Source of the DNA: Mycobacterium sp. UM_CSW
GTDB taxonomy: Bacteria > Actinomycetota > Actinomycetes > Mycobacteriales > Mycobacteriaceae
Assembly (NCBI RefSeq): GCF_000455205.1
Contig: NZ_AUWQ01000079.1
Coordinates: 1 to 59,892, forward strand
Length of the DNA: 59,892 nucleotides
Reading direction: 5' to 3'
In this document: positions 6,123 to 39,422 of the stretch, one piece after another
Position numbering within the stretch: the first letter of the stretch is position 1
How the letters are laid out: the number at the start of each line of letters is the position of its first letter
Notes under the pieces: model-generated
Told to the model about the DNA's origin: nothing
Seen by the model: only the letters and a program-made list of their open reading frames with translations
Databases searched by the model: none
Translations under genes and position numbers: made by a program

Positions 6123-6487
6123 CGCCGGCTGGCCGCCCGCTTGCGCTGCACCGGGATCCTGACGACCTCGGTGTGGGACTGTCCCTCGTCCTCCAACACG
6201 ATCACGCCCTCCGCGTCGCTGCCAACCGGTTTGGCCGCCCCCTCGAGCACCTCGCCGACGACGCGGACCGCCTTGGGCAGCGCGGTGTGCGTCAACACCT
6301 TGAAGAGCGGGACCGCCGCGATGAACAGCGCCAGCGGCGGCTCGATCAGGCCCAGCCCGGTCGCCACCACCAGGCCGCCGAAGTAGCCGACAGACCGTGG
6401 CACGTCGACTTCGACGGCGCCCACCTGGACTTCCAACACGTTTTCCGGTGCACCGAACCGGATCTCCACGGCGCTACTGGTGGCCAT
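6119..6487 (-). CDS. Conserved hypothetical protein with hydrophobic centre
   Basis: A 122-residue protein I do not recognise. The N-terminal third is beta-like and acidic, residues 33-62 are strongly hydrophobic and could span or dip into a membrane, and the C-terminal half is charged and ends in Arg/Lys. The gene is convergent with relA: the tetranucleotide TTAG gives relA its TAG and this gene its TAA, leaving no room for an intergenic terminator. The start ATG is at 6487, divergent from the cyclase gene. The clean codon pattern over the whole frame supports a real gene; the function is unknown. Confidence 0.68.
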
Positions 6488-6575
6488 GACCCCCTCCTCA
6501 TACTCGTGCGGAAGCCTTCGGGTACCCCGTGCGGTCGCGCCTAGCCCACTCGCACGGGATTGAGCGTGTTATTCG

Positions 6576-6601
6576 CCGCCAAACGCCCCTATTCTTGGCG
6601 G
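6576..6601. promoter_or_regulatory. Inverted repeat in the cyclase-gene leader
   Basis: CCGCCAA (6576-6582) and TTGGCGG (6595-6601) form a perfect 7-bp inverted repeat with a 12-nt spacer, 33 nt before ATG 6634. It lies between two divergent genes. It could be an operator or a 5' leader hairpin; the sequence alone does not decide. Confidence 0.4.
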
Positions 6602-6633
6602 ATCGGGGTTTGACCGCGATAGGTGGTACTGCC

Positions 6634-9600: not shown

Positions 9601-9810
9601 GCCGAGGCCGCGATCAAGCGGTTGGCGGCTGCGCCAGCCGATGACGGACTGGTGATACGCGACGCCTGGCTGCTGCGGCTGCGCGCCCTGCTGGCCCGTG
9701 CCCGCGGCGACGATTCCGCCTACCGCGATTACCGGGATCGCTGTCGCGCCATGGCGGAATCGCTCGGCTACGAAGGACACATCGCCTGGGCTCAGAAGAT
9801 GTGTGGTTAG
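6634..9810 (+). CDS. Zinc-ribbon / class III cyclase / AAA ATPase signalling protein
   Basis: A 1058-residue multidomain protein. A short zinc ribbon (C8, C11, C22, C25) is followed by a class III adenylate/guanylate cyclase domain (about 36-215). A P-loop ATPase module comes next, with Walker A GPPGIGKS at 262-269 and a Walker B-like LLIIEDAQW, then a long helical TPR-like C-terminal half. The cyclase metal ligands appear present (D47 in FADMV, D90 in YYGDG). However, the usual transition-state Asn of the V-N-x-A-x-R motif is Gly (VGFAER, G166), so cyclase activity is doubtful. ATG 6634 is preferred, with AGGTGG at 6621-6626; the frame stays open to 6529 without a good ribosome-binding site. 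The TAG overlaps the stop of the PE_PGRS gene. Confidence 0.85.
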
Positions 9811-11216
9811 GGCAAGCCATTCAGCCCGGGTGCGCCGAGCAGCGTGATGGTGCCGCCGCTGCCGGGGGTGCCCGCGGTCGTGCCAAGCCCGGCGTTGCCG
9901 CCGTTGCCGCCGGCGCCGAGGATCGCTACGGCGTTGCCGCCGTTGCCGCCGTTGCCGCTGGTCGTCGCGCCGTCTCCGCCGGCGCCGCCGGCACCGCCGT
10001 CGCCCAACAGCTTGACGTTGCCGCCGTCGGCCCCGCGGCCGCCGACAAGGCCGGCCCCGCCGTCGCCGCCGTTGCCGCCGTCGCCGATGATCCCGCTGTT
10101 GCCGCTATTGCCGCCGTTCCCGCCGGTGCCGAGGAACGCGGAGCCGCCCTGGCCGCCGTGACCACCGTTGCCGAACACCCCGGCGGTGCCCGCGTCGCCG
10201 CCGCTGCCGCCGTGTCCACCCGCTCCGGTGGCGTCCCCGCCGGTCCCGCCGGTGCCGCCGTTGCCGTGCAGCCACGCGCCCTTGCCGCCGTGGCCACCGA
10301 AACCGCCTATCCCGTTGGCGCCGGTAGCGCTCCCGCCGGCCCCGCCGGTGCCGCCGTTGCCCTGCAACCAACCGCCGTTGCCAGCGTTACCACCCAAACC
10401 GCCGGCGGTATCGCCGGCCCCACCCGCCCCGCCGCTGCCGCCGGAGCCTTGTAGCCACCCGCCGCTGCCGCCGGCGCCGCCGTAACCGCCGAAACCGTTG
10501 GCATCGCTTCCGCCGGCTCCGCCCGCGCCGCCGTGGCCGAGCATCGGGGCGTTGCCGCCCGCCCCACCCATGCCGCCAGTTCCGCCGACGGCCGTGGCGA
10601 TCCCCCCGGCCCCGCCTGCGCCGCCGGACCCGATCAGCCACCCGCCCCGGCCGCCGACGCCGCCCGTCCCGCCCGTCCCGCCCTGCCCGCCTCGGCCGCC
10701 GTTGCCGATGAGGCCGGCGTGCCCGCCCGCGCCGCCGGGCGCGCCGGGATTGGTGCCGTTCCCACCGGCACCGCCGTTGCCAAACAAGATTCCGCCGGCC
10801 CCGCCGGGCTGCCCCACCCCGTTGATGGTTTGCCCAGTGGCGCCGTTGCCGATCAATGGGCGTTTGAACAGCGCTTCGGTGGGTGCGTTGATCACGCCCA
10901 GCACGTCGTGCTGGAGGATCTGCAGCGGTGAGACGTTGGCGGCCTCGGCCGCCCCGTACGCTCCCGCGGCGGAAGTGAGGGCGTTGACGAACTGGTCGTG
11001 AAAGGCCGTCGCCTGGGCGCTGATTGACTGGAATGCCTGGGCGTGCTCGCCGAACACGACCGCGATACCCGCCGACACTTCGTCCGCGCCCGCAGCCAAA
11101 ACCTTGGTGGTGGGCGACGCCGCGGCCGCGTTGGCCGCGCTGATCGCGGACCCGATGCCCGCCAAATCTGTCGCCGCCGTTGTCACCGTCTCCGGCACCG
11201 CGATCACAAAAGACAT
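9807..11216 (-). CDS. PE_PGRS family protein
   Basis: A 469-residue protein with an N-terminal PE domain (starting MSFVIAVPE, about residues 1-95) and a short linker with the GRPLIG-like sequence KRPLIGNG (119-125). A long Gly-Gly-Xaa / Gly-Asn-Gly repeat region follows from about 134 to the end. PE_PGRS proteins are typically exported to the cell surface through ESX-5; neither export nor function is shown here. GGGAGGT lies just upstream of the ATG at 11216. A 925-bp stretch with lower GC lies before it. The family is confined to a subset of slow-growing mycobacteria, so it helps place the organism. Confidence 0.93.
9820..10817 (-). repeat. PGRS Gly-rich codon repeats
   Basis: About 1 kb of imperfect GGC-GGN-rich trinucleotide and hexanucleotide repeats encodes the Gly-Gly-Xaa and Gly-Asn-Gly units of the PE_PGRS protein. 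The repeats are degenerate and unevenly spaced, so they are coding low complexity. Such tracts are prone to in-frame indels and to assembly error. Confidence 0.9.
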
Positions 11217-12141
11217 TCCGTACCTCCCGACAGTTCGGCATTCGCCCGTTTGGTCACCGAGGAAAATCAGAAACGAAAGCAGCGTATCGCTGTCATTACA
11301 GCAAATTCCACTGTTTTATTGAAGATCTTGGTCCGAGCTGGCTTTGCCAAGGTCGCGGGCGCCAGGAGTCTCCGTTGTAGGTACGGCGCTTATATTCGTT
11401 GGGCGGCTATAGCGGGTCGACAATTTGCGCCGGCATGCTGGCGCCGGCTCCAACTCGAACTGGCCGCCTTCGACAACTGTCTTCGCGCAGGTCAAACCAA
11501 ACAGACGACCGCGGGTGGTGACGGCGGCCAATAATTCTCTACCGCGCACCGGTTATTACCGCTAGGGAATCGATGACTTCCTACTGCCGGACGACCTGTC
11601 GCAGCCATGCCGCTTTCCTGCCTGGCGATCCGCAATTTTGAAGTATGTAAATCGCCTGCTCAACGGACCAATTGAATGGTTCCCGGGCTCAGCGGAGACT
11701 TGCGTACGGCAATATTAGTGCGTCACACGCATCGACAGCGCTTCATGTGAAGATTCGCACGACTTCCGGGGCGTGCGAACGGACGAAAGGCGGCCCTTAG
11801 AGGAACTGCCGCCTCCGGAAGTGGTTATGGGGCCGCGATCACTTACGACTCGGAATTGATTTCGATTCGAACGCTCCCATCGATAGGCAGGTTCGCATCG
11901 TACGACCGGTTCGGTAAGCTAATCAAGACATCTTCAGCGATTTAGCCGGCAGTGGGCGGCGCTGCGGCCGCTTTGGCCGGTCGGCAAATAGCGGAGCGCC
12001 AGAGAGTTTTGTCAGCAAACAAGACCGTTTTCACTAGCGGTTTTCGTTGAAACTGCCACGCGTTTTACCGGGTGGCCAACCAGCCGCGGCGGCGGCCGGA
12101 TATGGGTGAGCGCGGCCGCGTTCAGCCCAGCGTGTCTAGTT
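11217..12141. other. Gene-poor intergenic stretch between PE_PGRS and otsA
   Basis: There are 925 bp with visibly lower GC than the flanks. I find no reading frame with convincing mycobacterial codon use; the frames present are short or antisense to known genes. The right part holds a nested inverted repeat: outer arms ACTTCCGG / CCGGAAGT at 11762-11769 and 11815-11822, inner arms AGGCGGC / GCCGCCT at 11788-11794 and 11808-11814. A direct repeat GCGCCGGC lies near 11427-11448. The segment must contain the PE_PGRS promoter. It could also hide a non-coding RNA or the scar of a rearrangement, since PE_PGRS and otsA are not neighbours in the H37Rv order as I recall it. Confidence 0.6.
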
Positions 12142-13602
12142 TCAGGCGTGGGGATGCGACTCGGCGAGCGCATCGAGGAACGAGCGCGCCCAGCGGTCCA
12201 CGTCGTGCGCGAGCACCTGCCGTCGCAGCGCGCGCATGCGGCGCCGTCCCTCCTCGGGGGACTGGTTGAGCGCCGCTTCGATCACGTCCTTGACGCCATC
12301 GGTGTCGTGCGGGTTCACCAGGTACGCCTGCCTGAGTTCGGCTGCGGCACCGGTGAATTCGGAGAGGACCAGCGCGCCGCCGAGATCGCTGCGGCAGGCC
12401 ACGTACTCCTTGGCCACCAGGTTCATCCCGTCGCGCAGCGGGGTCACCAGCATGACGTCGCTTGCCACGAAGAACGCGATGAGCTCGTCACGGGGGACCG
12501 GCCGATGCAGGTAGTGCACCACCGGATGACCCACCTCGGCGTATTCGCCGTTGATGTGGCCGACCTCGCGCTCGATGTCGTTGCGCAGGATCTGGTAGCT
12601 CTCCACGCGTTCGCGGCTGGGTGTCGCGAGCTGAACCAGCACGGTGTCGTCGCGTTTCGCGCGGCCCTCGGCGAGCAGCTCCGAGAAGGCCTTCAGCCGA
12701 ACGTCGATGCCCTTGGTGTAGTCGAGCCGGTCGACGCCGAGCAGGATCTTGCGCGGGTTGCCGAGCTCGGCGCGGATCTCTCGCGCCCGGCGGCGCACGT
12801 CGCGGTCGCGGGCCGCATGGTCGAGCGCGGCGGAGTCGATCGAGATCGGAAAGGCGCCCACCCGCACGGTGCGCGACGGCAGCTCCACCTCGCCGAATCG
12901 CGACCGCACCCCGACGGCTCCGCGGGAGGTGTTGACCCCGATCAGCTGCCGGGACAGGAACAGGAAATTCTGCGCACCCCCGGGCAGGTGGAAGCCGACC
13001 AGGTCGGCCCCGAGTAGGCCCTCGACGATCTCGGTGCGCCACGGCAGCTGCATGAACAGCTCCACCGGCGGGAACGGAATGTGCAGGAAGAAACCGATGG
13101 TCAGGTCGGGCCGCAGTTCGCGAAGCATCTTGGGAACCAGCTGCAGCTGGTAGTCCTGCACCCACACGGTCGCCCCGCGGGCCGCGGCGCGCGACGTGGC
13201 CTCGGCGAAGCGGCGGTTGACGTCGACGTAGCGGTCCCACCATTCGCGGTGGTAGATGGGTTTGACGATGACGTCGTGGTACAGCGGCCACAGCGTGGCG
13301 TTCGAGAATCCCTCGTAGTACTCGGCGACGTCGTCGGAGGTCAGCCGCACGGGGTGCAGATGGAGGTCGTCCTGGACGACGGGCTCGTAATCCAGCTCGT
13401 CGTCGTCATCGGCGACCCCCGGCCACCCGACCCACGCGCCGCGCCGGCGACGCAGCAGCGGCTCGAGGGCCGTGACCAAGCCGCCGGGGCTGCGTTTCCA
13501 GGCGGTGGTGCCGTCGGGAAGGCGCTCGAGGTCGACCGGCAGCCGATTGGCCACCACTACGAAATCGGAATTGCCGAATTGCTGGCCCCCGCTGGGAGTC
13601 AT
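12142..13602 (-). CDS. otsA: Trehalose-6-phosphate synthase (GT20)
   Basis: A 486-residue glycosyltransferase family 20 enzyme that joins UDP- or ADP-glucose to glucose-6-phosphate to give trehalose-6-phosphate in the OtsAB route. Family signatures: VVANRLPVD at the N terminus, [31 protein letters not shown] and the C-terminal [10 protein letters not shown] segment. The length matches the mycobacterial enzyme. The ATG follows immediately after the TAA of the small upstream gene (TAA-ATG), so translation is likely coupled. No otsB lies nearby. Confidence 0.96.
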
Positions 13603-13767
13603 TTAGGTGTCGTGTTTTGCCGGTCCGATACCCAGCATGGACAGGAAGACACGGCACTCGTCGGCGTCGTTCGCGTACGCGGCGACCACCCGCCTGGCCT
13701 GGCTCGCGGTGCTGTCGGCCAGGGGCTCCACATCGCCGAGTTCGCCAGGATCAGATTTCGTAGGCAT
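13603..13767 (-). CDS. Small conserved protein upstream of otsA (Rv3489-like)
   Basis: A 54-residue protein that starts MPTKSDPGELGD and ends MLGIGPAKHDT. It is acidic at the N terminus and probably one or two helices. As I recall, Rv3489, the gene just before otsA in M. tuberculosis, encodes a nearly identical product, which supports a real gene despite its size. Its stop codon abuts the otsA start directly, so the two form a translationally coupled pair. The role is unknown; a regulatory or stabilising partner of OtsA is a possibility, inferred only from linkage. Confidence 0.85.
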   Translation of the reverse strand: MPTKSDPGELGDVEPLADSTASQARRVVAAYANDADECRVFLSMLGIGPAKHDT

Positions 13768-13824
13768 AAGACAACTGTAGGCGACGTCGATATTCGCTCG
13801 CAGCGAACCGCCCCCACCTGCGAT

Positions 13825-15315
13825 TTAGTCCGCGGCGAGCACCTCCTTGGCGGCCCGCTCGCCCGACTGCACCGCGCCGCTGACGCAGTGGTACGGGTAC
13901 GTGCAGGTGTCGACGCCGGCCCAGTGCACGCGGCCGACGGGCTCGCGCACCGCGGGGCCGAACCCGGAACCCGTCCAGACCCCCGGGCCCATGCAGCCCG
14001 CGAAATCCCCGCGGGTCCATTCATCCATCGACCAGTTGAACTCGAAGTAGGAATCGGGCTCGGGGTTCTGCGGCGAAACCGCGGGGAACGTGATCTCTTC
14101 GGACAGCAGGCCGCCGTCCGGGCCGAATCGATGGGACATCTCGCTCAGGATCTGCGCTTTGCGTTCGCCTCGCGTCATGCGGTTGAAGTCGCGGGCTTTA
14201 TCCGCCGCCAAGAAAACGCTCATCAAGCCGGGCTTGTCGCTGTTTTCGTCCAACCCGGATTCGCGCGCATTGACGCTGTAGTCGCCGGGATAGATCGAGA
14301 TGGACTCGCCGACCAGTCCGCGTTTGCGCCAGAACGCCTCGTCGTAACAGAGCCAGATTTTCCAGAATGAACCCGTCGGCACCCGGTGCTGCAACTGCGC
14401 GCGATCGGGCGGCAGGATCGGATCGAAACGGATGAAGTTCGTCATCGAGATATTCGTCGCGACGACGACGCGGCGCGCCCGGACGCTGACTTTGTCCGCG
14501 CCGACGGCGACGCCGTTTGCGTCCTGCGAAATCTGGCGCACCGGCGCATCGACATGCACCGCGGCCGGACCCAGTTCGGCCATGATCCGGTCCGCCATTT
14601 GCTGCATTCCGCCCCGCACCCGATACTGCTGCGCTTGGCCCGGCGCCTGACCGCTCATGTTGAACAGCTTGCTTCGGTAGGTCTTGAGCACGAAAAGCCA
14701 GTGCAGCAGCGAACACGCACCCAGCTCCACTCCGGTGTAGCCGACGATCGCGGCGCCCAGCAGCGCCCTGGCGTCCTTGGTCAGCACGTTCAATTCGAAC
14801 CACGACTGGACCGTCATCTGGTCCGCCTCCCGCGTGGTGCTGGGCCCCAGGCTCACCGTGAACGAGAATTTGTTGTCTTCCCACGGCGCGTCGGGGTTAA
14901 CGGCTTCGGACATCTTCTCCATGCTGAGGATGGCTTTGCCAAGGTCCAATTTGGCCGTTATCGAAATTGGCGGCAGCGCCTTGAGGGGATTGGAATCGTG
15001 GGCGTCGTAGGTGTGGACGTTGTTGGAGGAGTCGACGAATACCGTCTTGCCTTGGTCCCATTGCTGATACGCCTCGATCCCGAATTCATCCATGAGCCGC
15101 CGGACGTCGGGCTGCGCCTGTTCGTCGCCGACCCATTGGCCACCGATCTCGAACAGCGTGCCGTCGGACAGTTGGGCCGACCAGGTCCGCCCGCCGATGC
15201 GCGGTCCGGCCTCGAGCACTGTGACCGAATGCCCGGCTTGATGGAGGCGGTAAGCGGCGGTCAGCCCGGCATATCCCGCACCCACGACGCAGAAATCGGA
15301 TTCCAATTGGGCCAT
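13825..15315 (-). CDS. Flavin-containing amine oxidase family protein
   Basis: A 496-residue protein of the monoamine-oxidase / amino-oxidase fold. The FAD-binding dinucleotide motif VVGAGYAGL is at residues 10-18, followed by the acidic ribose-binding position and GGRTW (VLEAGPRIGGRTW). The C-terminal FAD segment reads RVHWAGVDTCTYPYHCVSGAVQSG. It would oxidise an amine with oxygen to an aldehyde, ammonia and peroxide, but the substrate cannot be read from the sequence. It follows the otsA pair on the same strand with a 57-nt gap and is divergent from the crotonase gene. Rv3170 (aofH) is the nearest family member I recall. Confidence 0.85.
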   Translation of the reverse strand: MAQLESDFCVVGAGYAGLTAAYRLHQAGHSVTVLEAGPRIGGRTWSAQLSDGTLFEIGGQWVGDEQAQPDVRRLMDEFGIEAYQQWDQGKTVFVDSSNNVHTYDAHDSNPLKALPPISITAKLDLGKAILSMEKMSEAVNPDAPWEDNKFSFTVSLGPSTTREADQMTVQSWFELNVLTKDARALLGAAIVGYTGVELGACSLLHWLFVLKTYRSKLFNMSGQAPGQAQQYRVRGGMQQMADRIMAELGPAAVHVDAPVRQISQDANGVAVGADKVSVRARRVVVATNISMTNFIRFDPILPPDRAQLQHRVPTGSFWKIWLCYDEAFWRKRGLVGESISIYPGDYSVNARESGLDENSDKPGLMSVFLAADKARDFNRMTRGERKAQILSEMSHRFGPDGGLLSEEITFPAVSPQNPEPDSYFEFNWSMDEWTRGDFAGCMGPGVWTGSGFGPAVREPVGRVHWAGVDTCTYPYHCVSGAVQSGERAAKEVLAAD

Positions 15316-25490: not shown

Positions 25491-26504
25491 CTAGTCGTCG
25501 GCGATCCCGGGTTCGCTCAGCGCCGCGACGGTGTCTTCGCGCTGTCGCAGCGAGCGTGCGGCCACCGCGAACTGGTTGAGCTTGTCGATGACGGTTTGCC
25601 CTTCCGGCTTGTGGCCCCAGATGCTGATCCCTTGGTGGGTGGTGGGCTTCCAGGTCGATTCGTCGACGACGATCGGGTTCCACCCGACCTCCCATTCGAA
25701 TCCCGACGGGGTCATCGCGTAGTAGGACAGCTCCTTGTCGTTGGTGTGCTGTCCGACCGACATGGGAATGGCGAAGCCCAGCTCCTTGACCCGCTGATAG
25801 GAGGCGACCATATCGTCGAGCGTGGCGACCTGGACGTTGACGTGCTGGACCCGGGTGCGAATCGGGTTGACCGGCAACTGCTTAGCCGAGGCGATCGCCA
25901 CGGTGTGGTGGCGTTCGTTGACCCGCAGGAACCGGACCTTCAGCTTGAGGCCGTTGATCGTCTCGTCGATGTAGTCCGACAGGCGCGCGTCGAACACGTG
26001 GTTGTAGTAGCCGCGGACCAGCTGCGGCTTCTTGCTCGTCAGGGCGACGTGGCCCATTCCGCCTGCGCCGGTGAGGAATCCGCTGCCCGGTATGTCCAGG
26101 GGCAGCGGCGCGGTGCGCGCGGTGGTGTAGATCTCCTGGGCCAGCCCGTTCGGGCCACGGAACCGCAGGAAACGCTCGACGCCGCGCAGCTTCGCCTCTT
26201 CGTCGGTACCCTCGATTGCCGGCACGCCGTGGTCGACGACGCGGCGGTTGATCTCCTCGAACGTCGCGTGGTCGTCGAGTTGCCAGCCGAGCGCGACGAC
26301 GTCCTCGGCGGGGCCGCGCCGCACCAGCGCGCGGCATTCGTTGTCGTCGAGGCGGAATCGGACGGTGTCGGGCGCCATGTCGTCGAGGTGCATGCCGATC
26401 GCGTCGCGGCCGAACCGTTTCCAGTCGCCGATCTTGTCGCTTTCGACGACGACGTAACCCAGGTGCACACTGCCGAACACCGAGGGCTTAACTGTGGTTG
26501 TCAT
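25491..26504 (-). CDS. Type I extradiol ring-cleavage dioxygenase (VOC fold)
   Basis: A 337-residue two-domain vicinal-oxygen-chelate dioxygenase of the BphC/HsaC type. The iron ligands can be placed at H152 (MGHVALTS), H221 (QHVNVQVA) and E272 (PSGFEWEVGW), with the conserved second-sphere His in NERHH (199-200). It would cleave a catechol next to the diol using O2 (meta cleavage). It is the last gene of the leftward arm, 27 nt after the hydrolase gene, which is the enzyme expected to act on its product. The substrate is undetermined; position with an MhpA-like hydroxylase suggests a phenyl-alkanoate- or steroid-like catechol. Confidence 0.9.
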   Translation of the reverse strand: MTTTVKPSVFGSVHLGYVVVESDKIGDWKRFGRDAIGMHLDDMAPDTVRFRLDDNECRALVRRGPAEDVVALGWQLDDHATFEEINRRVVDHGVPAIEGTDEEAKLRGVERFLRFRGPNGLAQEIYTTARTAPLPLDIPGSGFLTGAGGMGHVALTSKKPQLVRGYYNHVFDARLSDYIDETINGLKLKVRFLRVNERHHTVAIASAKQLPVNPIRTRVQHVNVQVATLDDMVASYQRVKELGFAIPMSVGQHTNDKELSYYAMTPSGFEWEVGWNPIVVDESTWKPTTHQGISIWGHKPEGQTVIDKLNQFAVAARSLRQREDTVAALSEPGIADD

Positions 26505-26531
26505 GTTGATCCTTGAATTCTCGTGCGGTGA

Positions 26532-27413
26532 TTAGTTTTTCAGGAATTCGGCGGTGGCCGCGTTGAACAGGTCGGCCCGTTCCCACTGGACCCAGTGACC
26601 GGTGTTGGCGGTCATCAGCACGTCGGCGTTGGGCATCCGCTCGGCCAGCATCGCCGCGCCGCTCGGCTTGTTCACCTTGTCGTCTCGTCCCCAGACGACC
26701 AGGGTCGGCGTTGCCAGGCCCTGGAGCCTGCGGTCGCGGGTGAAGTCCATCCGCCACAGCGTGGCCAGATTCGCCGGCCGCTGCAGGGGCGGATTCGCGA
26801 CGACCTCGGGGTCGATCGAAGCCCGGTACCGGGATTCGATGAGCGATTCCGGCACGCTGTCGCCGTCGTACACCAGGTACGAGCGGATGAAGGTGCGCAG
26901 CTTTTCCAGGCTCGGGCCGTCGCCGCCGTAGTAGGAGAGCAGGCTCCGGAGCCCGGGGCTGGGCAGCCCCCGGCTGATTCCCACGCCGCCGGGACCCATC
27001 AGCACCAGCTTGTCGACACGATTGGGGGCGTCCAGGGCGAGCCGTAGCGCGCACGCCCCGCCGTAGGAGTTGCCGACCAGGTGCGCCCGGTCGATGCCGA
27101 GCGCGTCGAGCATGCCCTTGATGTGAACGGCGAGGTACCCGAACGGGTCTCGCCGGTCGACCCCCTTGGCGGACCGGCCGTAGCCGGGCATGTCCGGGAC
27201 GATGACCCGGAAGTGCTCGGCGAGCGGCTCGATGTTGCGGGAGTAGTTCGACACGCCCGAGGCGCCCGGCCCCCCGCCGTGCAGCAGGACCACTGGGGTC
27301 CCGCTGCCGGCTTCGGCCAGGAAGATCTCCTTTCCGTCGACGAGGACGGTGCGTTCGGTGATTGTTGCGGTTGCCATTTCTGTTGCCATTTCGGTTGTCC
27401 TTTCGGTTGCCAT
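26532..27413 (-). CDS. Meta-cleavage product (C-C) hydrolase
   Basis: An alpha/beta hydrolase of the MhpC/BphD/HsaD family, up to 293 residues. The oxyanion motif is VVLLHGGGPGASG, nucleophile S116 is in GNSYGG, the acid is in WGRDDKVN (about 244), and H273 is in NTGHWVQWE. It would split the ring-opened dienoate into 2-hydroxypenta-2,4-dienoate and a carboxylic acid. The N terminus contains a threefold repeat with in-frame ATGs at residues 1, 9 and 13; the conserved fold begins near residue 20, so any may be the real start. It lies 10 nt after the hydroxylase gene and 27 nt before the dioxygenase gene. Confidence 0.92.
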   Translation of the reverse strand: MATERTTEMATEMATATITERTVLVDGKEIFLAEAGSGTPVVLLHGGGPGASGVSNYSRNIEPLAEHFRVIVPDMPGYGRSAKGVDRRDPFGYLAVHIKGMLDALGIDRAHLVGNSYGGACALRLALDAPNRVDKLVLMGPGGVGISRGLPSPGLRSLLSYYGGDGPSLEKLRTFIRSYLVYDGDSVPESLIESRYRASIDPEVVANPPLQRPANLATLWRMDFTRDRRLQGLATPTLVVWGRDDKVNKPSGAAMLAERMPNADVLMTANTGHWVQWERADLFNAATAEFLKN

Positions 27414-27423
27414 AGTCGAGCCC

Positions 27424-28971
27424 TTACGATTTGAAGCCGGCCGGCGGTGGCGGCAGGGGTTGCCCCTCGGCGGCGCCTGCGTAGACGAAGCCGTCGGGCC
27501 GCACGGCCACCACGGAAGTGCCCTTTTTGTGTAGCCAGCTGGTCAGGGTGCCGTCGCTGTCGACGATGGTGTCGGCGCGCGGAACGCTTCCCGGCGGGGT
27601 GACCTGCAAGACCGGCACGCCCGCTGCTCGCCAGTCCGGCCATTCGGCGGCGCGCCCGGTCTGGAGCACGGTCCAGCGGCCGCCGATCACGTCATCGAGG
27701 CGCACGCTGTCACCCTTTTCGTCGCGCACGTGCGGCTGGGGGACCAGCCAGCCGACGGCCCGGTTGCCGTTGCGGGCCAGCAGGCCTTCCCGGTAGTGCG
27801 CGTCGGGAATCCAGCGGTGGTTGCGCAGCCAGGTGAGGAAGCCCGGCACCTTGCTGGCGGTGCGGAAGATGTGATTGCGGGCCGCCGCGCGCAACCGGTT
27901 GCGCTGGATGATCAGCTTGCCGGTCTTGACCGCGCGGTTGGTCACCTCTTTGACGTGCGGCATCCGCTCGGCCTGGTAGGTGTCGAGCACGGATTCCGGC
28001 AGCGACCCGTTCAGCACGGCGCCGAGCTTCCAGCACAGGTTCGCCACGTCGCGCACACCGGCGCACATGCCCTGGCCGATCCATGGGGGCATCGCGTGGG
28101 CGGCGTCGCCGGCCAGGAAGACCCGGCCCACGCGCCAGCGGTCGGCGAAGCGGACGTGGTGGCTGTAGCAGGCGAAGCCGAGGATCTGCACGTTCTCCGG
28201 CGATATCCCCTGGCCCCGCAGCACGTTCCAGATGGCCTCCTCGTGCAGGAGGTCCTTTTCGTCCTCCTCGTCGCGCACCGGGAACTCCCAGCGGTGGTGT
28301 CCCAGCGGGGTGGGGCAGTCGACGGTGGGCCGTTCGGGGTTGCAGTGGAACCGAAGCCGGTCGTGGCCCGGCCATTCCTTGAGCACCTTGGTGTCGATGA
28401 CGATCCAGCGCTCGCCGTAGGTGCGGCCGCCGAAACCGACACCCAGCTGCGCGCGCGTCGCGCTGGATCCGCCGTCGGCGGCGATCACGTAGGAGGCCCG
28501 GATCCGGCGGAACTCGTCGGCGTCGAGGTCGGCGAGCAGCAACTCGACGTGGTCGTCCTTCTGGACCAGCCGCAGGCATTCGTGCTTGAGCAGGATTGAC
28601 ACGTTGGGGAAGCGATCCACGCCGTCGCGGAGCACCTTTTCCAGCGCCGGCTGGTAGATGAACTGCTGCGGCGGGTGGCCGTTGCCGCGCGAGACCGGTA
28701 GCAGCTTGACGAACGGCACGCCATTGGCGTCGACGAAGTTGGCCCCGCGGCCGGGCTGCATGTCCGCGTTGAGGCGATCGGCCAGCCCGACCTGCTGCCA
28801 GATCCGAACGACTTCCTCGTCGGTCGAGATGGCGCGCGCTCGCGCGTAGATGTCGGGGTCGCGTTCCACGACGACGACGTTGAGGCCCAATTGGCCCAAC
28901 AGGTTGGCCGCGGTGCAGCCGACCGGGCCGTAGCCGACGATCGCCACGTCATAGGTTTTTTGGTCTTTCAT
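27424..28971 (-). CDS. FAD-dependent aromatic hydroxylase (MhpA-like)
   Basis: A 515-residue class A flavoprotein monooxygenase. The dinucleotide motif VGYGPVG is at residues 12-18, the DG motif is in AADGGSS (164-170), and the second FAD motif GDAAHAMPPWIGQGM starts at 288. The C-terminal thioredoxin-like extension is typical of PheA/MhpA-type enzymes. It would hydroxylate a phenolic ring with NAD(P)H and O2 to give the catechol for the dioxygenase. ATG 28971 is chosen because the FAD motif follows 12 residues later; a longer frame to 29175 would run through the divergent promoter. It is the first gene of the leftward arm. Confidence 0.9.
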   Translation of the reverse strand: MKDQKTYDVAIVGYGPVGCTAANLLGQLGLNVVVVERDPDIYARARAISTDEEVVRIWQQVGLADRLNADMQPGRGANFVDANGVPFVKLLPVSRGNGHPPQQFIYQPALEKVLRDGVDRFPNVSILLKHECLRLVQKDDHVELLLADLDADEFRRIRASYVIAADGGSSATRAQLGVGFGGRTYGERWIVIDTKVLKEWPGHDRLRFHCNPERPTVDCPTPLGHHRWEFPVRDEEDEKDLLHEEAIWNVLRGQGISPENVQILGFACYSHHVRFADRWRVGRVFLAGDAAHAMPPWIGQGMCAGVRDVANLCWKLGAVLNGSLPESVLDTYQAERMPHVKEVTNRAVKTGKLIIQRNRLRAAARNHIFRTASKVPGFLTWLRNHRWIPDAHYREGLLARNGNRAVGWLVPQPHVRDEKGDSVRLDDVIGGRWTVLQTGRAAEWPDWRAAGVPVLQVTPPGSVPRADTIVDSDGTLTSWLHKKGTSVVAVRPDGFVYAGAAEGQPLPPPPAGFKS

Positions 28972-28998
28972 TTCCGGCCCCTTCGCCAGGCTTGTTAA

Positions 28999-29014
28999 TG
29001 TAGCGATCCATACA
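28999..29014. promoter_or_regulatory. Candidate TetR operator in divergent promoter
   Basis: TGTAGCGATCCATACA is a dyad of the form TGTA-NN-GATC-NN-TACA (12 of 16 positions symmetric). It lies between the hydroxylase (start 28971) and the TetR gene (29060) and overlaps the -10 region of the leftward promoter. This is the expected place for autoregulation and control of both arms. Confidence 0.6.
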
Positions 29015-29040
29015 GTAAGCTTTTGTACCGTGAGCGTCAA
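29012..29040 (-). promoter_or_regulatory. Leftward SigA-type promoter
   Basis: On the minus strand TTGACG (29040-29035) is followed after exactly 17 nt by TACTGT (29017-29012). Transcription would start near 29005 and read into the hydroxylase-hydrolase-dioxygenase genes. The -10 box overlaps the candidate operator. Confidence 0.6.
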
Positions 29041-29059
29041 CACCCAAAAAGGAGGGAAC

Positions 29060-29716
29060 GTGACGGCAGAACCCGAAAAGGCGGGCGCGACCGGACCTCG
29101 CGACCGCAGGCGCACCCGGGCCAACGGGGAACAGTCGCGCGAGCGGATTCTCGATGCGGCGACCGAGGTCGCCACCGAACGCGGCTACGAAGGAACCACC
29201 ATCTCCCTGGTCAGCAAGAAGAGCGGCCTGCCGCCGACGTCCATTTACTGGCACTTCGCCGACAAGGACGACCTGATCGCCGCCGTCATCGAGCGAAGTT
29301 TCGCCCGCTGGCTGGCCGCGCTGGACCTGCCGGGCGGCGAAATGGCCGCGGAGCGGGTGAACGAGCTCGGGATGCAGGTGGCCAAGGCGCTGCTGGATGC
29401 CCCCGACTTCCTCCGGCTGGGCCTGATGCTGGCGCTGGAGCGCCGCCCGGTCGAGCCGCGCGCCAGGGCGATGTTCCTCGAGGTTCGCGACCGCGCGTTT
29501 CACCGGTTCGAGGCGGTCGTGCGCGACCTTGCCCCCGAGCTCGACGACGAAGGCGTGCGCCTGCTCACCACCTATGCGATCGCCGGCGCCGACGGCCTGT
29601 TCATCGCCAAGGAGGTCGGCGGCGACTCGGTCGACTTGCTCAAGCTGTTCGACCTGCATGTGCGCCTGGTCTTCCAGGCGGCAGCGAAGCTTTTGGAGTC
29701 CGGAGAACCGACATGA
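29060..29716 (+). CDS. TetR-family regulator of the meta-cleavage cluster
   Basis: A 218-residue TetR-type repressor. A basic N-terminal tail precedes the DNA-binding domain, with recognition-helix region TTISLVSKKSGLPPTSIYWHFADKDDL split by the usual GLPPTSIYWHF signature; the C-terminal ligand-binding half is helical. GTG 29060 is chosen because GGAGGG lies 3 nt before it; an upstream GTG at 29030 has no such site. The stop overlaps the next start (ATGA), so the regulator is translated with the lower-pathway genes. It probably binds the dyad at 28999-29014 and is released by an aromatic pathway intermediate; both points are inference. Confidence 0.88.
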   Translation: MTAEPEKAGATGPRDRRRTRANGEQSRERILDAATEVATERGYEGTTISLVSKKSGLPPTSIYWHFADKDDLIAAVIERSFARWLAALDLPGGEMAAERVNELGMQVAKALLDAPDFLRLGLMLALERRPVEPRARAMFLEVRDRAFHRFEAVVRDLAPELDDEGVRLLTTYAIAGADGLFIAKEVGGDSVDLLKLFDLHVRLVFQAAAKLLESGEPT

Positions 29717-30510
29717 TCGATGTGACCGCACGGGACCCGCAGCTCGACGACGCCGCGAGGCGGCTGTATGCGGCACAGCTGGGCAGCAGTCCCATCCCGC
29801 CGCTGACCGAGACCTATCCGAATCTCGGCGTGGCGCAAGCCTATTCGGTACAGCGGCGCAACTTGGCCCGTCACCTGGCTGATGGCGCGCTGCTGTGCGG
29901 CCACAAGATCGGGCTGACCTCCGCGCCGATGCAAAGCCTGCTGGGTGTCAGCGAGCCCGACTTCGGCTACGTCCTCGACAGCATGGTGCTGTCCGACGGG
30001 ACTTCGGTGCCGCGTGCTGCGTTCTGTGCGCCGCGGGTGGAACCCGAAGTGGCGTTTCTCCTGCGGGCGCCGCTGCGCGGTCCGGGGATGACCGTCGCCG
30101 AGGTGATGGCGGCCACCGAAGCGGTGGCCGCGGCGCTGGAGATCGTCGACAGCCGCATCGCCGACTGGCGGATCACGCTGGCGGACACCATTGCCGACAA
30201 CGCCAGCTCCGGTGCGGTGGTGCTCGGCGAGTGGGTACCGATCTCCGACGCGCCGCCGCTGTCCGGCACCACCGCGGCGCTCTACCTGAACGACGCGCTG
30301 GTCGAAACGGGGGAGGGCACCGCCGTCATGGGCGATCCGGCCGTCGCCGTCGCGTGGCTGGCGAACGCCTTGGCCGAGTACGGAACCGGGATCGACGCGG
30401 GGCAGTTCGTGATGTCCGGCTCTTACACCGGGGCCGCGTTTGTCGGGGCGGGCGACCGCGCGGCGGCCACGATCACCGCCCTGGGCGCCGTCAGCGTCAC
30501 GTTCGAGTAG
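29713..30510 (+). CDS. 2-hydroxypenta-2,4-dienoate hydratase
   Basis: A 265-residue protein of the FAA-hydrolase fold, subfamily MhpD/HsaE. The metal-binding and family segments [18 protein letters not shown] and [10 protein letters not shown] are present. It would add water to 2-hydroxypenta-2,4-dienoate to give 4-hydroxy-2-oxovalerate. ATG 29713 overlaps the TetR stop by 4 nt. It is the first enzyme of the lower pathway, in the order hydratase, acetaldehyde dehydrogenase, aldolase, as in the hsaEGF cholesterol genes. Confidence 0.92.
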
Positions 30511-30521
30511 AGGAGAAACCC

Positions 30522-31469
30522 ATGGCCAGTCAACAATTCCCGGTGGCGATCATCGGGTCCGGCAACATCGGCACGGACCTGATGCTCAAGATCCTGCGCG
30601 GTGGCGGACCGCTGACGATGGCGGCGTTGATCGGCATCGACCCGGCCTCCGACGGGCTGGCGCGGGCGAAGCGGGCCGGCGTGCCGACATCCGCGCAGGG
30701 CGTCGACGGGCTGCTGGCGATGCCGGGCTTCGACCAGATCCGGTTGGTGTTCGACGCCACGTCCGCCGAGGCTCACGTCAAGCACTGGGAGGCCCTGCGC
30801 CACACCGGTGTACGTGTGCTCGACCTGACTCCCGCCGCCATCGGCCCGTTCTGTGTGCCGGTGGTCAACCTGGAGGACCACATCGACGAGCCCAACCTGA
30901 ACATGGTGACCTGTGGCGGGCAGGCCACCGTCCCGATTGTGGACGCGGTCAACCAGGTGGCGCCGGTGGCCTACGCCGAGATCGTGTCAGCGATCTCGTC
31001 GAAGTCCGCCGGCCCGGGCACCCGGGCCAACATCGACGAGTTCACCGAGACCACGGCGACCGCGCTGAGGGTCGTCGGCGGGGCGCAGCGCGGCAAAGCG
31101 GTGATCGTCCTCAACCCGGCCGATCCGCCGGTCATCATGCGCAACACGGTGTACTGCCTGGTGGAAGGCGACTGCGACCAAACCGCCGTCGAGGCGTCCA
31201 TCGCGGCGATGATCGAGCGGGTCCAGGACTATGTTCCCGGTTATCGGCTCAAGCAGCCGGTGCAGTTCGAGACCTTCGGTCCCGACAAGCCGCTACACAT
31301 TCCCGAGACCGGGAAGTTCATCGGCACCAGGGTCACCACGCTGCTGCAGGTGACGGGCGCCGCGGATTACCTTCCCGCGTACGCCGGCAACCTCGACATC
31401 ATGACCTCCGCGGCGCTGGCGACCGCCAAAAGCATTGCCGCACACGAGATGACGAACGTAGGAGTGTAA
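30522..31469 (+). CDS. Acylating acetaldehyde dehydrogenase
   Basis: A 315-residue enzyme of the MhpF/HsaG/BphJ family that oxidises acetaldehyde to acetyl-CoA with NAD. The N-terminal Rossmann motif GSGNIGTDL is near residue 12, and the catalytic Cys is in [10 protein letters not shown]. It should work in complex with the following aldolase, which channels acetaldehyde to it (known for the family). AGGAGA precedes ATG 30522. It ends 2 nt before the aldolase start. Confidence 0.94.
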
Positions 31470-31471
31470 CC

Positions 31472-32488
31472 ATGGCCGAGCAGCTCTATATCAGCGACGT
31501 CACGCTGCGGGACGGGATGCACGCGGTTCGCCACCAATACACGCTGCGGCAGGTCGCCGACATTGCCGCGGCGTTGGACGCCGCGGGCGTCGATTCGATC
31601 GAGGTCGCTCATGGCGACGGGCTGGGCGGCTCAAGCTGCGTTTACGGCTTCGGCGGCCACACCGACCTGGAGTGGATCGAGGCGGTCGCCGGCGTGGTGC
31701 GCCGGGCGAAGATCGCGACCCTGATCCTGCCGGGAATCGGCACGATCCGGGACCTGGCCGCGGCACATCGGGCCGGGGCCGGCGTGGTGCGGGTCGCCAC
31801 CCACTGCACCGAGGCCGACATCTCCGCACACCACATCGCCGCGGCCCGCGAGATGGGCATGGACACCGTCGGATTCCTGATGATGAGCCACCTGACCACT
31901 CCCCAGGGGCTGGCCGAGCAGGCCAAGTTGATGGAGGGCTTCGGGGCCGGCTGCGTCTACGTCGTCGACTCCGGCGGCGCCATGACCATGCGCGACGTCG
32001 CCGAGCGGGTCGACGCGGTGCGCCAAAACCTTTGTCCGGAAACCGAAATCGGCATCCACGCCCACCACAACCTGTCGTTGGGCGTGGCCAACTCGATGGT
32101 CGCCGTCGAACACGGGTGTCATCGCGTCGACGCGTCCCTGGCCGGCATGGGTGCCGGCGCGGGCAACGCCCCGCTGGAGGTTTTCATCGCGGCCGCCACC
32201 CGCATGGGCTGGGAGCACGGCTGCGATCTCAATGCCCTTGAGGATGCCGCCGATGACCTCGTCCGCCCTCTGCAGGAACGTCCGGTGCGCGTCGATCGCG
32301 AGACGCTGACGCTCGGCTACGCCGGGGTGTACTCCAGCTTCCTGCGCCATGCGGAGGCGGCGGCGGAGCGGTTCGGTGTCGACGCGCGAACGCTGCTGGT
32401 CGAGGCCGGGCGTCGCGGGATGGTCGGCGGCCAGGAAGACATGCTCGTCGACATCGCCCTGGACCTGTCGGGCGCGGCGCCGCGCTGA
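31472..32488 (+). CDS. 4-hydroxy-2-oxovalerate aldolase
   Basis: A 338-residue DRE-TIM aldolase of the MhpE/HsaF/BphI type that splits 4-hydroxy-2-oxovalerate into pyruvate and acetaldehyde. The catalytic DVTLRDGMH motif is near residue 9, and the metal-binding His pair is in GIHAHHN. Start ATG 31472 is 2 nt after the dehydrogenase stop, consistent with a channelling complex made in equal amounts. It completes the pathway to central metabolites and is the last gene of the rightward arm; the next gene is convergent. Confidence 0.94.
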
Positions 32489-32515: not shown

Positions 32516-33703
32516 TCACGCCTCGTCGAGCACCGGGAACAGCAGCTGTTGCATGAGTAGCTGCACGGCCGCCGCGAGCGGGATCGCCACCAACGCCCCG
32601 ACCACGCCCAGCCACGCCGCGCCGAGGAGCACGGCGACCACGGTAACGCCGGCCGGCACTCGCACCGCACGGCCGATGATTTTGGGCGTCAACAGATAAT
32701 CCTCACCCAACCGGAAGCCCATGTAGAAGAGAACGGTCACGATGGCGACGGGGATCGAGACGCTCAGCGCGACCGCGGCGACGATGAATCCGCCCACTGT
32801 CGAACCGTAGGGGAAGAGGTCCAAGACGGCCACCACTACGCCAAGCAGCACCGCGTATGGGACGTCGAGAACGAGACACCACACAAAGGTGGCGGCCCCC
32901 GCAATCACCGAAGTCAGCACGTTCCCAAACAGATACGCACCAAACTTGGCCACCACCTCGTCACCGATCAGAATGGCGCGCGGCCGGCGAGAGTTGGGCA
33001 TGAGACGGTAGAAGCCGGCGCGGATGCGGCGCATGTCGGCGAGGAAGTAAACGGTAAGCATTGCCACGATGCCGACGTGCGACATGACGCCGAACACCTC
33101 CGACCCGGTCCGGACGATCCCCGCGACGGTGAACCGGCCGGACCCGTTGACCAGGTCGGTGATTCGCTGTTGCAGGTGGACGCGTTCGTTGATCCTGCCT
33201 ATCAGGGACGAACGGTCCTGGGCGTGCTGCAGGTAATGCGGCAGTTGGTCGACGAGCTGACGCGCCTCTTGCACCAGCGGGGGAATGGTCGCGGCCAATG
33301 TGCCGGCGATGAGGGCGAACACGGCCGTCAGCACGATCGTGACCGCCGCCCAGCGCGGCACCCTGCGGTTGACGAGCCACGACACGGCGGTCTCGAGTCC
33401 CAGTGCGAAAAACATCGCCACGCCGATCAACACCAGCACCGACGACATTGACCCGAGGACGAGCACCGCGCCATACGTCACGGCCACGCCGGCTGACGCG
33501 GTCAGCCCCACAACGAACGGGGAGCGCCGGTTGAACGGCTGCCCGCGCCGGCCGAGTTGATGTGCGTCGGAACGCAGTTGCGCGGCGCGCTGTTCGGCGT
33601 CGACGATCGGTCCTTCGTCGGCGCCGTGTGGGCGACCCACCAACCGGTGATGGCCCCGATCGGCAAGGTCTTGTTGTGGCTCCGGGTTGTCAACCACGTG
33701 CAT
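32516..33703 (-). CDS. AI-2E (UPF0118) family transporter
   Basis: A 395-residue polytopic membrane protein. After a hydrophilic N terminus of about 60 residues it has paired hydrophobic helices, an amphipathic middle region (VDQLPHYLQHAQ...) and a C-terminal group of helices with the family-type segments LLGVVVAVLDLFPYGSTVGG and ALVAIPLAAAVQLL, each typical of PF01594. Members export varied small molecules or ions, and the name does not imply autoinducer transport here. It is convergent with the aldolase gene, with a 27-nt gap. The start at 33703 could be internal to a shorter true N terminus. Confidence 0.83.
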   Translation of the reverse strand: MHVVDNPEPQQDLADRGHHRLVGRPHGADEGPIVDAEQRAAQLRSDAHQLGRRGQPFNRRSPFVVGLTASAGVAVTYGAVLVLGSMSSVLVLIGVAMFFALGLETAVSWLVNRRVPRWAAVTIVLTAVFALIAGTLAATIPPLVQEARQLVDQLPHYLQHAQDRSSLIGRINERVHLQQRITDLVNGSGRFTVAGIVRTGSEVFGVMSHVGIVAMLTVYFLADMRRIRAGFYRLMPNSRRPRAILIGDEVVAKFGAYLFGNVLTSVIAGAATFVWCLVLDVPYAVLLGVVVAVLDLFPYGSTVGGFIVAAVALSVSIPVAIVTVLFYMGFRLGEDYLLTPKIIGRAVRVPAGVTVVAVLLGAAWLGVVGALVAIPLAAAVQLLMQQLLFPVLDEA

Positions 33704-38006: not shown

Positions 38007-38105
38007 GCCTTTCGCGTGCCGGCGATTGGTCGAAATCGGCCACACCTTCGCCCGTCGCGCTCCATGATGGCTAGTACTCAAAACCAAACCGGGGGGTTTA
38101 GGCGA

Positions 38106-39422
38106 ATGTCATCTGTGCTCGTTCTGCCAGAAATATTGGAGACGGTCGCGGCCGATGTGGCGCGCATCGGTTCGGACGTGACCGCCGGCAATCTGGCCGC
38201 GGCCTTTCCGACTACCGAGCTGGCGGCGGCGGGCGGCGACGAGGTGTCGGCGGCCATCGCGGCGGTGTTCGGCGCGCACGCCCAGGACTATCAGGCGGCG
38301 GCGGCGCGGGCGACGACGTACTACGAGCAGTTCGTGCAGACGTTGACCGCGGCGTCGTCGTCGTACACGGCCACCGAGGCGGTCAACGCCGCCAGCCTTT
38401 CCAGCGAGCTGCAGGCGTTCCTCAACGCTCCGCTCAACACGATCACCGGGGCCTGGGCCAACAGCCCGTTCGGAAGCGCGATCGACCAGGCGCTGTTCGG
38501 CACCGGGGGCAACCAGCAGTCGATCGTCATCGACTTCGTGCGGCACGGGCAGTCAGTTGGCAACGCCGCCAACCTGATTGACACGGCCGTGCCCGGATTG
38601 CCCCTCACGCCGCTGGGCATGCAACAGGCGACGGCCATCGGCACCGCGCTCGGGGCGCAAGGTAACTTCGCGGGGGTTTTCGAGTCGCAGCTGACCAGGG
38701 TCCAGCAGACCGCGTTCTTCGCCGGCATGAACAACGTGCCAATATTGGCCGGGCTCAACGAGATCAGTGCGGGCGTGTTCGACGGCGCACCGGACATCAG
38801 CCCCCAGGGCCTGCTGTATTTGGTTGCGCCGCTGGCGTGGACGCTCGGATTCCCCATCGTGCCGATGCTCGGCCCTGGCTCGGCCCACATCAACGGGATC
38901 GTTTTCGACCAGGGGTTCACCCACGCGATGCAGACGATGTATGGCACCGCGATGACGAACCCCGTCGTGAACCCGGGTAACGGCCAAATCACCGACGTCG
39001 CGTTCTCCAGCGAGTTCGCGATCGAGGTCGGCACGCTGATGAACGTCAACAATCCCGATCCCTTGCTGATGCTCACCCACCCACTGCCCAACACCGGCGT
39101 CGTCGTGGTGCAGGGCAGTCCCCAGGGCGGTTGGTCGCTGGTCAGTTGGGACGGCGTGCCGGTGGGGCCGCCGACCTTGCCGACCAAGCTGTTCGTCGAC
39201 GTGCGCGACCTGATCACGGCGCCGCAATTCGCGGCGTGGAACAGCTTGACGGCCCTTGGCACCGGCGATCCGGCGACGATCGTGGGCGCGGTGCAGAACG
39301 GTGTCGACGAGGTCGCCGCGGCCACGGTTCACTTCCCGGTCGCGGTGGGCCGCGACTTGATCCACGCCGTGACCAACACCAGCGTCAGTGGGCTGACGGC
39401 CGAGCTGACCGGATTGCTCTAG
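38106..39422 (+). CDS. PE-domain protein with histidine-phosphatase (phosphoglycerate mutase-like) domain
   Basis: A 438-residue protein. Residues 1 to about 95 are a PE domain (starting MSSVLVLPE), followed by a short linker and, from about 138, a histidine-phosphatase domain. The phospho-acceptor motif is FVRHGQS (H147), the acid region is LNEISAGVFDG (E219), and the second catalytic His is in MLTHPLPN (H325). M. tuberculosis Rv0754 (PE_PGRS11), close to phoP, joins PE, PGRS and this phosphatase domain; here the PGRS part is absent. The PE domain is expected to direct ESX export, so the enzyme would act outside the cell. The TAG overlaps the convergent gene's TAG by 4 nt. Confidence 0.9.
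   Translation: MSSVLVLPEILETVAADVARIGSDVTAGNLAAAFPTTELAAAGGDEVSAAIAAVFGAHAQDYQAAAARATTYYEQFVQTLTAASSSYTATEAVNAASLSSELQAFLNAPLNTITGAWANSPFGSAIDQALFGTGGNQQSIVIDFVRHGQSVGNAANLIDTAVPGLPLTPLGMQQATAIGTALGAQGNFAGVFESQLTRVQQTAFFAGMNNVPILAGLNEISAGVFDGAPDISPQGLLYLVAPLAWTLGFPIVPMLGPGSAHINGIVFDQGFTHAMQTMYGTAMTNPVVNPGNGQITDVAFSSEFAIEVGTLMNVNNPDPLLMLTHPLPNTGVVVVQGSPQGGWSLVSWDGVPVGPPTLPTKLFVDVRDLITAPQFAAWNSLTALGTGDPATIVGAVQNGVDEVAAATVHFPVAVGRDLIHAVTNTSVSGLTAELTGLL

Follow-up and report, generated by a model that had tools for sequence, protein, structure and literature searches.

A predicted TetR-controlled aromatic meta-cleavage cluster in Mycobacterium sp. UM_CSW, distinct from the cholesterol ring-degradation set

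Contig NZ_AUWQ01000079.1 of Mycobacterium sp. UM_CSW (59,892 nucleotides, the whole of which is called the window below) carries between positions 25491 and 32488 seven open reading frames that very probably constitute a self-contained catabolic module, controlled by a TetR-family regulator, for a phenol or hydroxyphenyl acid that would be hydroxylated to a 3-substituted catechol. An earlier note on this DNA had described seven pathway genes here; all of them are present at this span, as six catabolic enzymes and one regulator. They form two divergent operons separated by 88 bases, with a flavin adenine dinucleotide (FAD) hydroxylase, a hydrolase and a dioxygenase, in this order, on the minus strand, and tetR, a hydratase, an acylating acetaldehyde dehydrogenase and an aldolase on the plus strand. 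The dioxygenase belongs to a clade that excludes the HsaC-type enzymes of the same genome and is carried by more than a third of the sampled genomes of the genus (109/297); the gap between the operons holds a conserved palindrome of which this genome has a single copy and relatives have copies almost exclusively at this cluster.

Genes and predicted reactions

The features of the cluster, with the evidence for each in brackets, are:

25491..26504, minus strand: type I (VOC/BphC-fold) extradiol dioxygenase, 337 residues (family searches; Fe ligands H152, H221, E272)
26532..27413, minus strand: meta-cleavage-product (MCP, C-C) alpha/beta hydrolase, 293 residues (family searches; triad S116, D245, H273)
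27424..28971, minus strand: MhpA-type FAD hydroxylase, 515 residues, ATG at 28971 (NF004829, 439.9 bits, cut-off 390)
28995..29018, no strand: predicted operator palindrome between the divergent operons, core 28999-29015 (conservation)
29060..29716, plus strand: TetR-family regulator, 218 residues, GTG at 29060 (family searches)
29713..30510, plus strand: 2-hydroxypenta-2,4-dienoate hydratase, FAA-hydrolase fold (TIGR03220 the best NCBIfam model)
30522..31469, plus strand: acetaldehyde dehydrogenase (acylating), 315 residues (TIGR03215, 449.1 bits, cut-off 282.25)
31472..32488, plus strand: 4-hydroxy-2-oxovalerate aldolase, 338 residues (TIGR03217, 550.6 bits, cut-off 286; DmpG_comm domain)

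The GTG start of tetR is preceded by a stretch resembling a ribosome-binding site, and the start of the hydratase gene overlaps the tetR stop codon. All seven proteins are matched by Pfam and NCBIfam models. The aldolase and the dehydrogenase pass NCBIfam equivalog cut-offs; the hydroxylase passes that of NF004829, the subfamily model for 3-(3-hydroxyphenyl)propionate/3-hydroxycinnamate hydroxylases, and none of the four equivalog cut-offs of its group, its identity to MhpA of E. coli being 34%. No NCBIfam cut-off is reached by the dioxygenase, hydrolase, regulator or hydratase.

The residues of the type I extradiol site of the dioxygenase (H152, H221 and E272, the iron ligands by analogy with BphC, and the second-sphere H200, H253 and Y262) are invariant in 107 of 107 family sequences, and are also present in all 11 other enzymes aligned. 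The catalytic triad of the hydrolase is kept in 136 of 137 aligned family sequences, the last having a gap, and the FAD motifs of the hydroxylase are conserved across its family. Two arginines of the dioxygenase, R194 and R216, are likewise invariant in its family, and of the 11 other enzymes those of the Burkholderia and Cupriavidus relatives alone share them; this conservation suggests that they may contact a substrate carboxylate. A structure predicted for the dioxygenase with AlphaFold, from an alignment of 20 rows, was unusable (mean predicted local distance difference test score, pLDDT, 35.6).

The families to which the enzymes belong predict the following course of reactions. In the absence of an aromatic inducer, TetR bound to the palindrome would keep both operons off. 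Upon induction the FAD hydroxylase would place a second hydroxyl group on the ring, and the dioxygenase would then cleave the ring adjacent to the two hydroxyls, yielding a yellow 2-hydroxy-6-oxo-2,4-dienoate; this would be split by the hydrolase into a side-chain acid and 2-hydroxypenta-2,4-dienoate, which the hydratase, aldolase and acylating dehydrogenase would convert to pyruvate and acetyl-CoA. MCP hydrolases need a ketone as ring-cleavage product, and therefore the combination of hydroxylase, dioxygenase and hydrolase points to a 3-substituted catechol. An amidohydrolase of the decarboxylase superfamily would serve many relatives as an accessory under the same regulator, perhaps stripping a ring carboxylate ahead of the hydroxylase.

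Distribution of the cluster and of its predicted operator

A FastTree phylogeny was calculated from the window dioxygenase, three plasmid sequences and 103 representatives with less than 90% identity to one another; the representatives were chosen from 176 collected sequences, of which 141 were distinct. The comparison with BphC and HsaC, proposed in the earlier note as a check, places the window enzyme within a clade of 107 tips (support 0.971, or 0.987 when the Burkholderia and Cupriavidus relatives are added), from which the two HsaC-type enzymes of the same genome, the plasmid BphC, NahC and others are excluded. Orthologs of the dioxygenase occur at 111 places in 109 of 297 genomes of the genus, with at least 61% identity (61-97%; one match, in genome G134, is only partial); below this group identity falls to 34% or less among the matches listed.

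Neighbourhoods were examined for 98 of these 111 places (97 plus the window, 13 being left out), with protein matches counted at a limit of 120 bits. The dioxygenase is accompanied by the hydrolase in 96 loci, the hydroxylase in 94 and tetR in 83 (plus 3 counted under the TetR of R. fascians). All seven window proteins are matched together in 34 of the 98 loci and the hydroxylase-hydrolase-dioxygenase core in 94; the grouping of these genes is not due to chance, and the cluster, as the earlier note had proposed to establish, is conserved in the genus and distinct from hsa.

Beyond the genus, a scan of named genomes, of which the best 80 of 179 encoding stretches were kept, found the dioxygenase in Mycobacterium and the genera split from it, Rhodococcus, Gordonia, Williamsia, Antrihabitans and Streptomyces, among others. 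The dioxygenase is also plasmid-borne, with 64-68% identity, in two Rhodococcus and one Tsukamurella; the R. pyridinivorans plasmid is typed as conjugative and has transposition genes close by, and in the Tsukamurella cluster the hydroxylase is a different one (about 36%). Phylum-wide the dioxygenase is uncommon and scattered: at E <= 1e-80 it was found in 7 of 396 genomes, six of which belong to this genus. The cluster represents an actinobacterial family apart from hsa. A further plasmid, that of R. erythropolis BG43 (locus L260, 4777-8542), combines an MhpA-type hydroxylase with a VOC dioxygenase that falls outside the 107-tip clade.

The gap between hydroxylase and tetR could be read in 86 of the 98 loci, the other 12 giving no such pair. 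It contains a single palindrome in the clade of the window and, in most of the others, a tandem pair about 20 bases apart. A degenerate consensus has no mismatch to 74 of the 86 gaps, one to 11 and three to 1, a count that is circular because the consensus was drawn from the same sequences. The genome-wide search is an independent test: the exact pattern occurs in 75 of 294 genomes of the genus (0 for the reversed control), 74 of which have the dioxygenase, and by comparison of coordinates all sites lie about 2.4-3.6 kilobases (kb) from the dioxygenase in 72 of the 75. Of the three exceptional genomes, G173 and G148 have a contig break within the cluster. G045 is different: a tetR with an operator stands divergently beside an amidohydrolase gene (locus L162, 7045-8796), 1.3 Mb from the dioxygenase, whose main cluster (L115) has no tetR match and keeps, in front of its hydroxylase, a tandem of operator-like sites (1-2 mismatches); regulation here is apparently exerted in trans by the distant tetR. 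Similar sites, again with 1-2 mismatches, precede the hydroxylase in four more of the pairless loci (L079, L094, L108, L114), with no tetR match in the 19 kb read, and the regulator may lie elsewhere in those genomes. The remaining seven have no operator-like sites; five of these lack a hydroxylase match or are cut at the hydroxylase.

In the genome of the window the 24-base operator occurs once within 3 mismatches. A search of that genome for further regulon members, such as transporter or side-chain genes, with the 17-base pattern and up to 2 mismatches gave 7 matches against 4 for the reversed control, which is background; only the window site is perfect. By eye, R. fascians and R. pyridinivorans can be seen to have related double sites; Gordonia and R. 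aetherivorans also have related sites, and the form in Streptomyces is diverged. A promoter and terminator scan of positions 28900-29200 found nothing with a consensus that was not made for this bacterial group. Overall, the position and conservation of the palindrome suggest that it is the TetR operator of both operons, through which repression would be exerted.

Partner genes and a probably lost second copy

An amidohydrolase-2 protein is encoded near the cluster in 42 of the 98 loci, on the strand of the dioxygenase and typically directly after it (median offset 1.1 kb). Its best relative in the PDB is an uncharacterised hydrolase (2f6k); weaker ones are the 5-carboxyvanillate, gamma-resorcylate, 2,3-dihydroxybenzoate and salicylate decarboxylases, ACMSD and a hydratase. 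The metal-site residues are conserved in 70 of 70 distinct sequences. At E <= 1e-100 the protein is found in 82 of 297 genomes of the genus, and in 62 of them it co-occurs with the dioxygenase (Fisher p 1.6e-17, uncorrected for relatedness). Operator, tetR and amidohydrolase are linked. The amidohydrolase was also considered as a substitute hydratase: near the cluster each is less frequent where the other is present (odds ratio 0.34, p 0.014, relatedness uncorrected), but both are present in 13 of 98 loci, and the idea was set aside as a weak lead. A second, different amidohydrolase (368 residues in R. fascians) recurs in non-mycobacterial versions of the cluster (L010, L011, L190, L191, L210, L229 and several Streptomyces loci), in some of them with an IclR regulator and an efflux-type gene of the major facilitator superfamily (MFS) alongside.

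Beside the R. fascians cluster lies an MFS protein closest to the EmrB/DHA2 efflux pumps (220 bits, cut-off 230). Relatives with 65-78% identity are found in the clusters of Williamsia, a Gordonia, several Streptomyces and one genome of the genus (G173); those in the genome of the window have 41% identity or less. The remark in the earlier note that no transporter or side genes accompany the pathway is therefore accurate for this cluster and does not extend to its relatives, which add the amidohydrolase and, mostly outside the genus, the EmrB-like protein.

The genome of the window encodes an amidohydrolase as well, on contig C28. There (locus L250, C28:14500-33500), at about 8980-11200, the intact gene adjoins what is left of a dioxygenase gene, a decayed 3' portion that is shortened and contains a stop. 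The DNA that follows has its counterpart in Mycobacterium interjectum (L244) past the aldolase, at the opposite end of the cluster of that species. The main flanking blocks are colinear between the two species (81-93% identity), and about 6.0 kb is missing. On this alignment, C28 appears to be the scar of a roughly 6-kb deletion that removed a second cluster. It seems, then, that this genome no longer has the common version of the cluster and that the one in the window is a divergent version.

Foreign origin by composition was considered and rejected: the guanine-plus-cytosine (GC) content of the cluster is 68.1%, against 67.7% for the whole window. By overall GC nothing points to a recent import; at third codon positions the cluster is slightly richer in GC (0.87-0.91) than the two flanking genes (0.83-0.84). 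Among seven relatives searched for an empty site, six have the neighbouring PAP2/diacylglycerol-kinase gene (62-66%); in the three of these six whose surroundings were read, one of them on a contig that ends about 1 kb from that gene, no simple empty insertion site for the window copy was seen, and there was no match to 11 other window neighbours.

Two further genes of the window deserve mention. An AI-2E family permease gene (32516-33703) is convergent with the aldolase gene, its 3' end lying 27 bases after it; such a gene also adjoins the aldolase in six loci of relatives (L054, L055, L057-L059, L061) and may be a passenger. At 38016-39422 a PE-family N-terminal domain is fused to a histidine-phosphatase domain.

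Candidate substrates, the cholesterol set and known systems

Several observations weigh against a self-contained module of the kind proposed. With TIGR03220 the hydratase scores 245.7 bits, against a cut-off of 408.8, and it falls under every curated cut-off. The genes of the lower pathway are often unmatched near the cluster: the hydratase is found in 45 of the 98 loci and the dehydrogenase and aldolase in 62 and 64, with no match in 53, 36 and 34 respectively. The lower pathway is therefore replaceable, and true absences may be fewer than counted because contig ends cut some loci. Nor is the amidohydrolase obligatory, since 47 of the 109 dioxygenase genomes lack it and 20 of the 82 amidohydrolase genomes lack the dioxygenase, and the copy on C28 has no operator within 2 mismatches. 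Finally, no close member of the family has been characterised.

With the operator and the linked amidohydrolase, the question of the substrate can be put to the test. One candidate, which we advance tentatively, is 3-(3-hydroxyphenyl)propionate or 3-hydroxycinnamate, degraded as in the Mhp pathway with a VOC dioxygenase replacing MhpB, to succinate or fumarate, pyruvate and acetyl-CoA. The score of the hydroxylase above the NF004829 cut-off, the Mhp-like aldolase and dehydrogenase, and the invariant R194 and R216, which could meet the carboxylate, are consistent with it; the low identity to MhpA and, for the hydrolase, to MhpC (34% each) and the failure of the hydroxylase with all four equivalog models argue against it, and the amidohydrolase and efflux-type protein of relatives would be left unexplained.

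These partners would be accommodated, in what we regard as a rather doubtful alternative, by a 3-alkylphenol or a 6-alkylsalicylate-type compound, possibly toxic, which the amidohydrolase, where present, would decarboxylate from salicylate to alkylphenol, with the efflux pump handling toxicity in relatives. The kinship of the amidohydrolase to the gamma-resorcylate, 2,3-dihydroxybenzoate, 5-carboxyvanillate and salicylate decarboxylases, its conserved metal site, its link to tetR and the operator, and the EmrB-like protein of R. fascians and other clusters all point in this direction; but the closest PDB match is uncharacterised, the superfamily also includes hydratases and hydrolases, many dioxygenase genomes manage without the enzyme, and the genome of the window has only distant relatives of the pump. 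A broader version, to which we give little credence, would read the cluster as a defence-and-feeding module, widespread among actinobacteria, that deals with a naturally occurring toxic phenolic acid of the 6-alkylsalicylate (anacardic) type: the amidohydrolase would decarboxylate the acid, some lineages would add efflux, and the meta pathway would mineralise the product completely, all under one dedicated TetR sensor; the C28 amidohydrolase, having outlived its deleted cluster, would then serve the divergent copy of the window from a distance and without an operator.

Independently of the substrate, we consider the cluster, on its model scores and identities, to be a ring-cleavage route distinct from the hsa cholesterol set. 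The earlier note had expected a dedicated route alongside a cholesterol cluster located elsewhere, and indeed a true HsaC set lies on contig C55, so that the window does not hold the only hsa set of the organism: with the HsaC model (cut-off 450 bits) the C55 enzyme scores 557.9 bits, that of contig C41 365.8 and the window dioxygenase about 159.7-159.8, with identities of the last of 27% to the C55 and 31% to the C41 enzyme. Its description as HsaC-like holds for membership of the VOC superfamily and no further. The second aldolase of the genome is also on C55, beside a hydratase and a dehydrogenase in hsa order; the hsaE-G-F order reported for the window is correct as well, but its dehydrogenase and aldolase resemble the E. 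coli proteins MhpF (65%) and MhpE (75%) more than the C55 copies (52% and 50%). Rather than the second ring-cleavage route of the genome, as had been proposed, it is at least the third, because C41 has an HsaA/HsaC-like pair in addition to the true set on C55. That further catabolic set (locus L134, C41:50000-69500, at 5351-13854) comprises an HsaA-like oxygenase, a dioxygenase that passes the BphC model and fails that of HsaC, an FAD-binding protein distantly like ketosteroid dehydrogenases, a distant Baeyer-Villiger-type monooxygenase, an IclR-type regulator and a LipP1-family lipase. That the window cluster is itself a divergent second steroid-ring set, as the hsaE-G-F order and the HsaD-like hydrolase (HsaD is its best NCBIfam model, with 240.7 bits, and its best PDB match) might suggest, is very improbable given the missed HsaD (400) and HsaC cut-offs, an oxygenase gene of the single-component FAD type in place of two-component HsaAB, the sets on C55 and C41, and a dioxygenase clade that leaves both their enzymes out. 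Such genes should not be named hsa, cholesterol or MhpA on name alone.

In the open-access literature searched we found no account of the actinobacterial clade, the operator or the amidohydrolase link, and no assigned substrate for this dioxygenase. Among known systems, mhpABCDFE of E. coli has the same chemistry and order of steps (identities: aldolase 75%, dehydrogenase 65%, hydratase 35%, hydroxylase and hydrolase 34%); unlike it, the cluster has no MhpR- or MhpT-type gene, and MhpB gives no BLASTP match to the window dioxygenase, whose domains are of VOC type and not of the LigB fold. With hsaABCD/hsaEGF the cluster shares the VOC dioxygenase fold, the MCP hydrolase and the gene order of the last three steps, but not the HsaAB-type oxygenase, and its dioxygenase and hydrolase are far under the HsaC and HsaD cut-offs. 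The pairing of an FAD hydroxylase with a VOC dioxygenase, which had been thought unusual, has a precedent in HcdA/HcdB and probably in HbpA/HbpC, HbpA being a flavoprotein and HbpC a VOC enzyme; we know of no amidohydrolase associated with hbpCAD.

By kind of enzyme only, hbpCAD (2-hydroxybiphenyl, Pseudomonas azelaica HBP1) resembles the window in having a hydroxylase, an extradiol dioxygenase and a hydrolase that yields an acid and 2-hydroxypenta-2,4-dienoate, and an efflux system is required in that strain for growth on the toxic phenol (PMC3715732, in part); it differs in its bacterial phylum and in its regulator HbpR, a sigma54-dependent activator of XylR/DmpR type instead of a TetR protein (PMC3040749, in part). 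The hcdABC genes of Pseudomonas mandelii 7HK4, for 3-(2,4-dihydroxyphenyl)propionate, are again alike by kind of enzyme (FAD hydroxylase, hydrolase and HcdB, stated to be a type I extradiol dioxygenase) and unlike in their ipso-hydroxylation substrate and phylum; the paper describing them, which also mentions hppCBKAR and ohp of Rhodococcus, reports no substantial homology of the hcd enzymes to earlier ones (PMC6222606). The aph 4-alkylphenol pathway of Rhodococcus has a different arrangement, with a two-component hydroxylase and an AraC-type regulator (PMC6710988, in part). Against this background the enzyme pairing itself was already known; what is new here is the operator, the accompanying amidohydrolase, including its relocation together with tetR in G045, and the C28 amidohydrolase next to the apparent scar of a deleted cluster.

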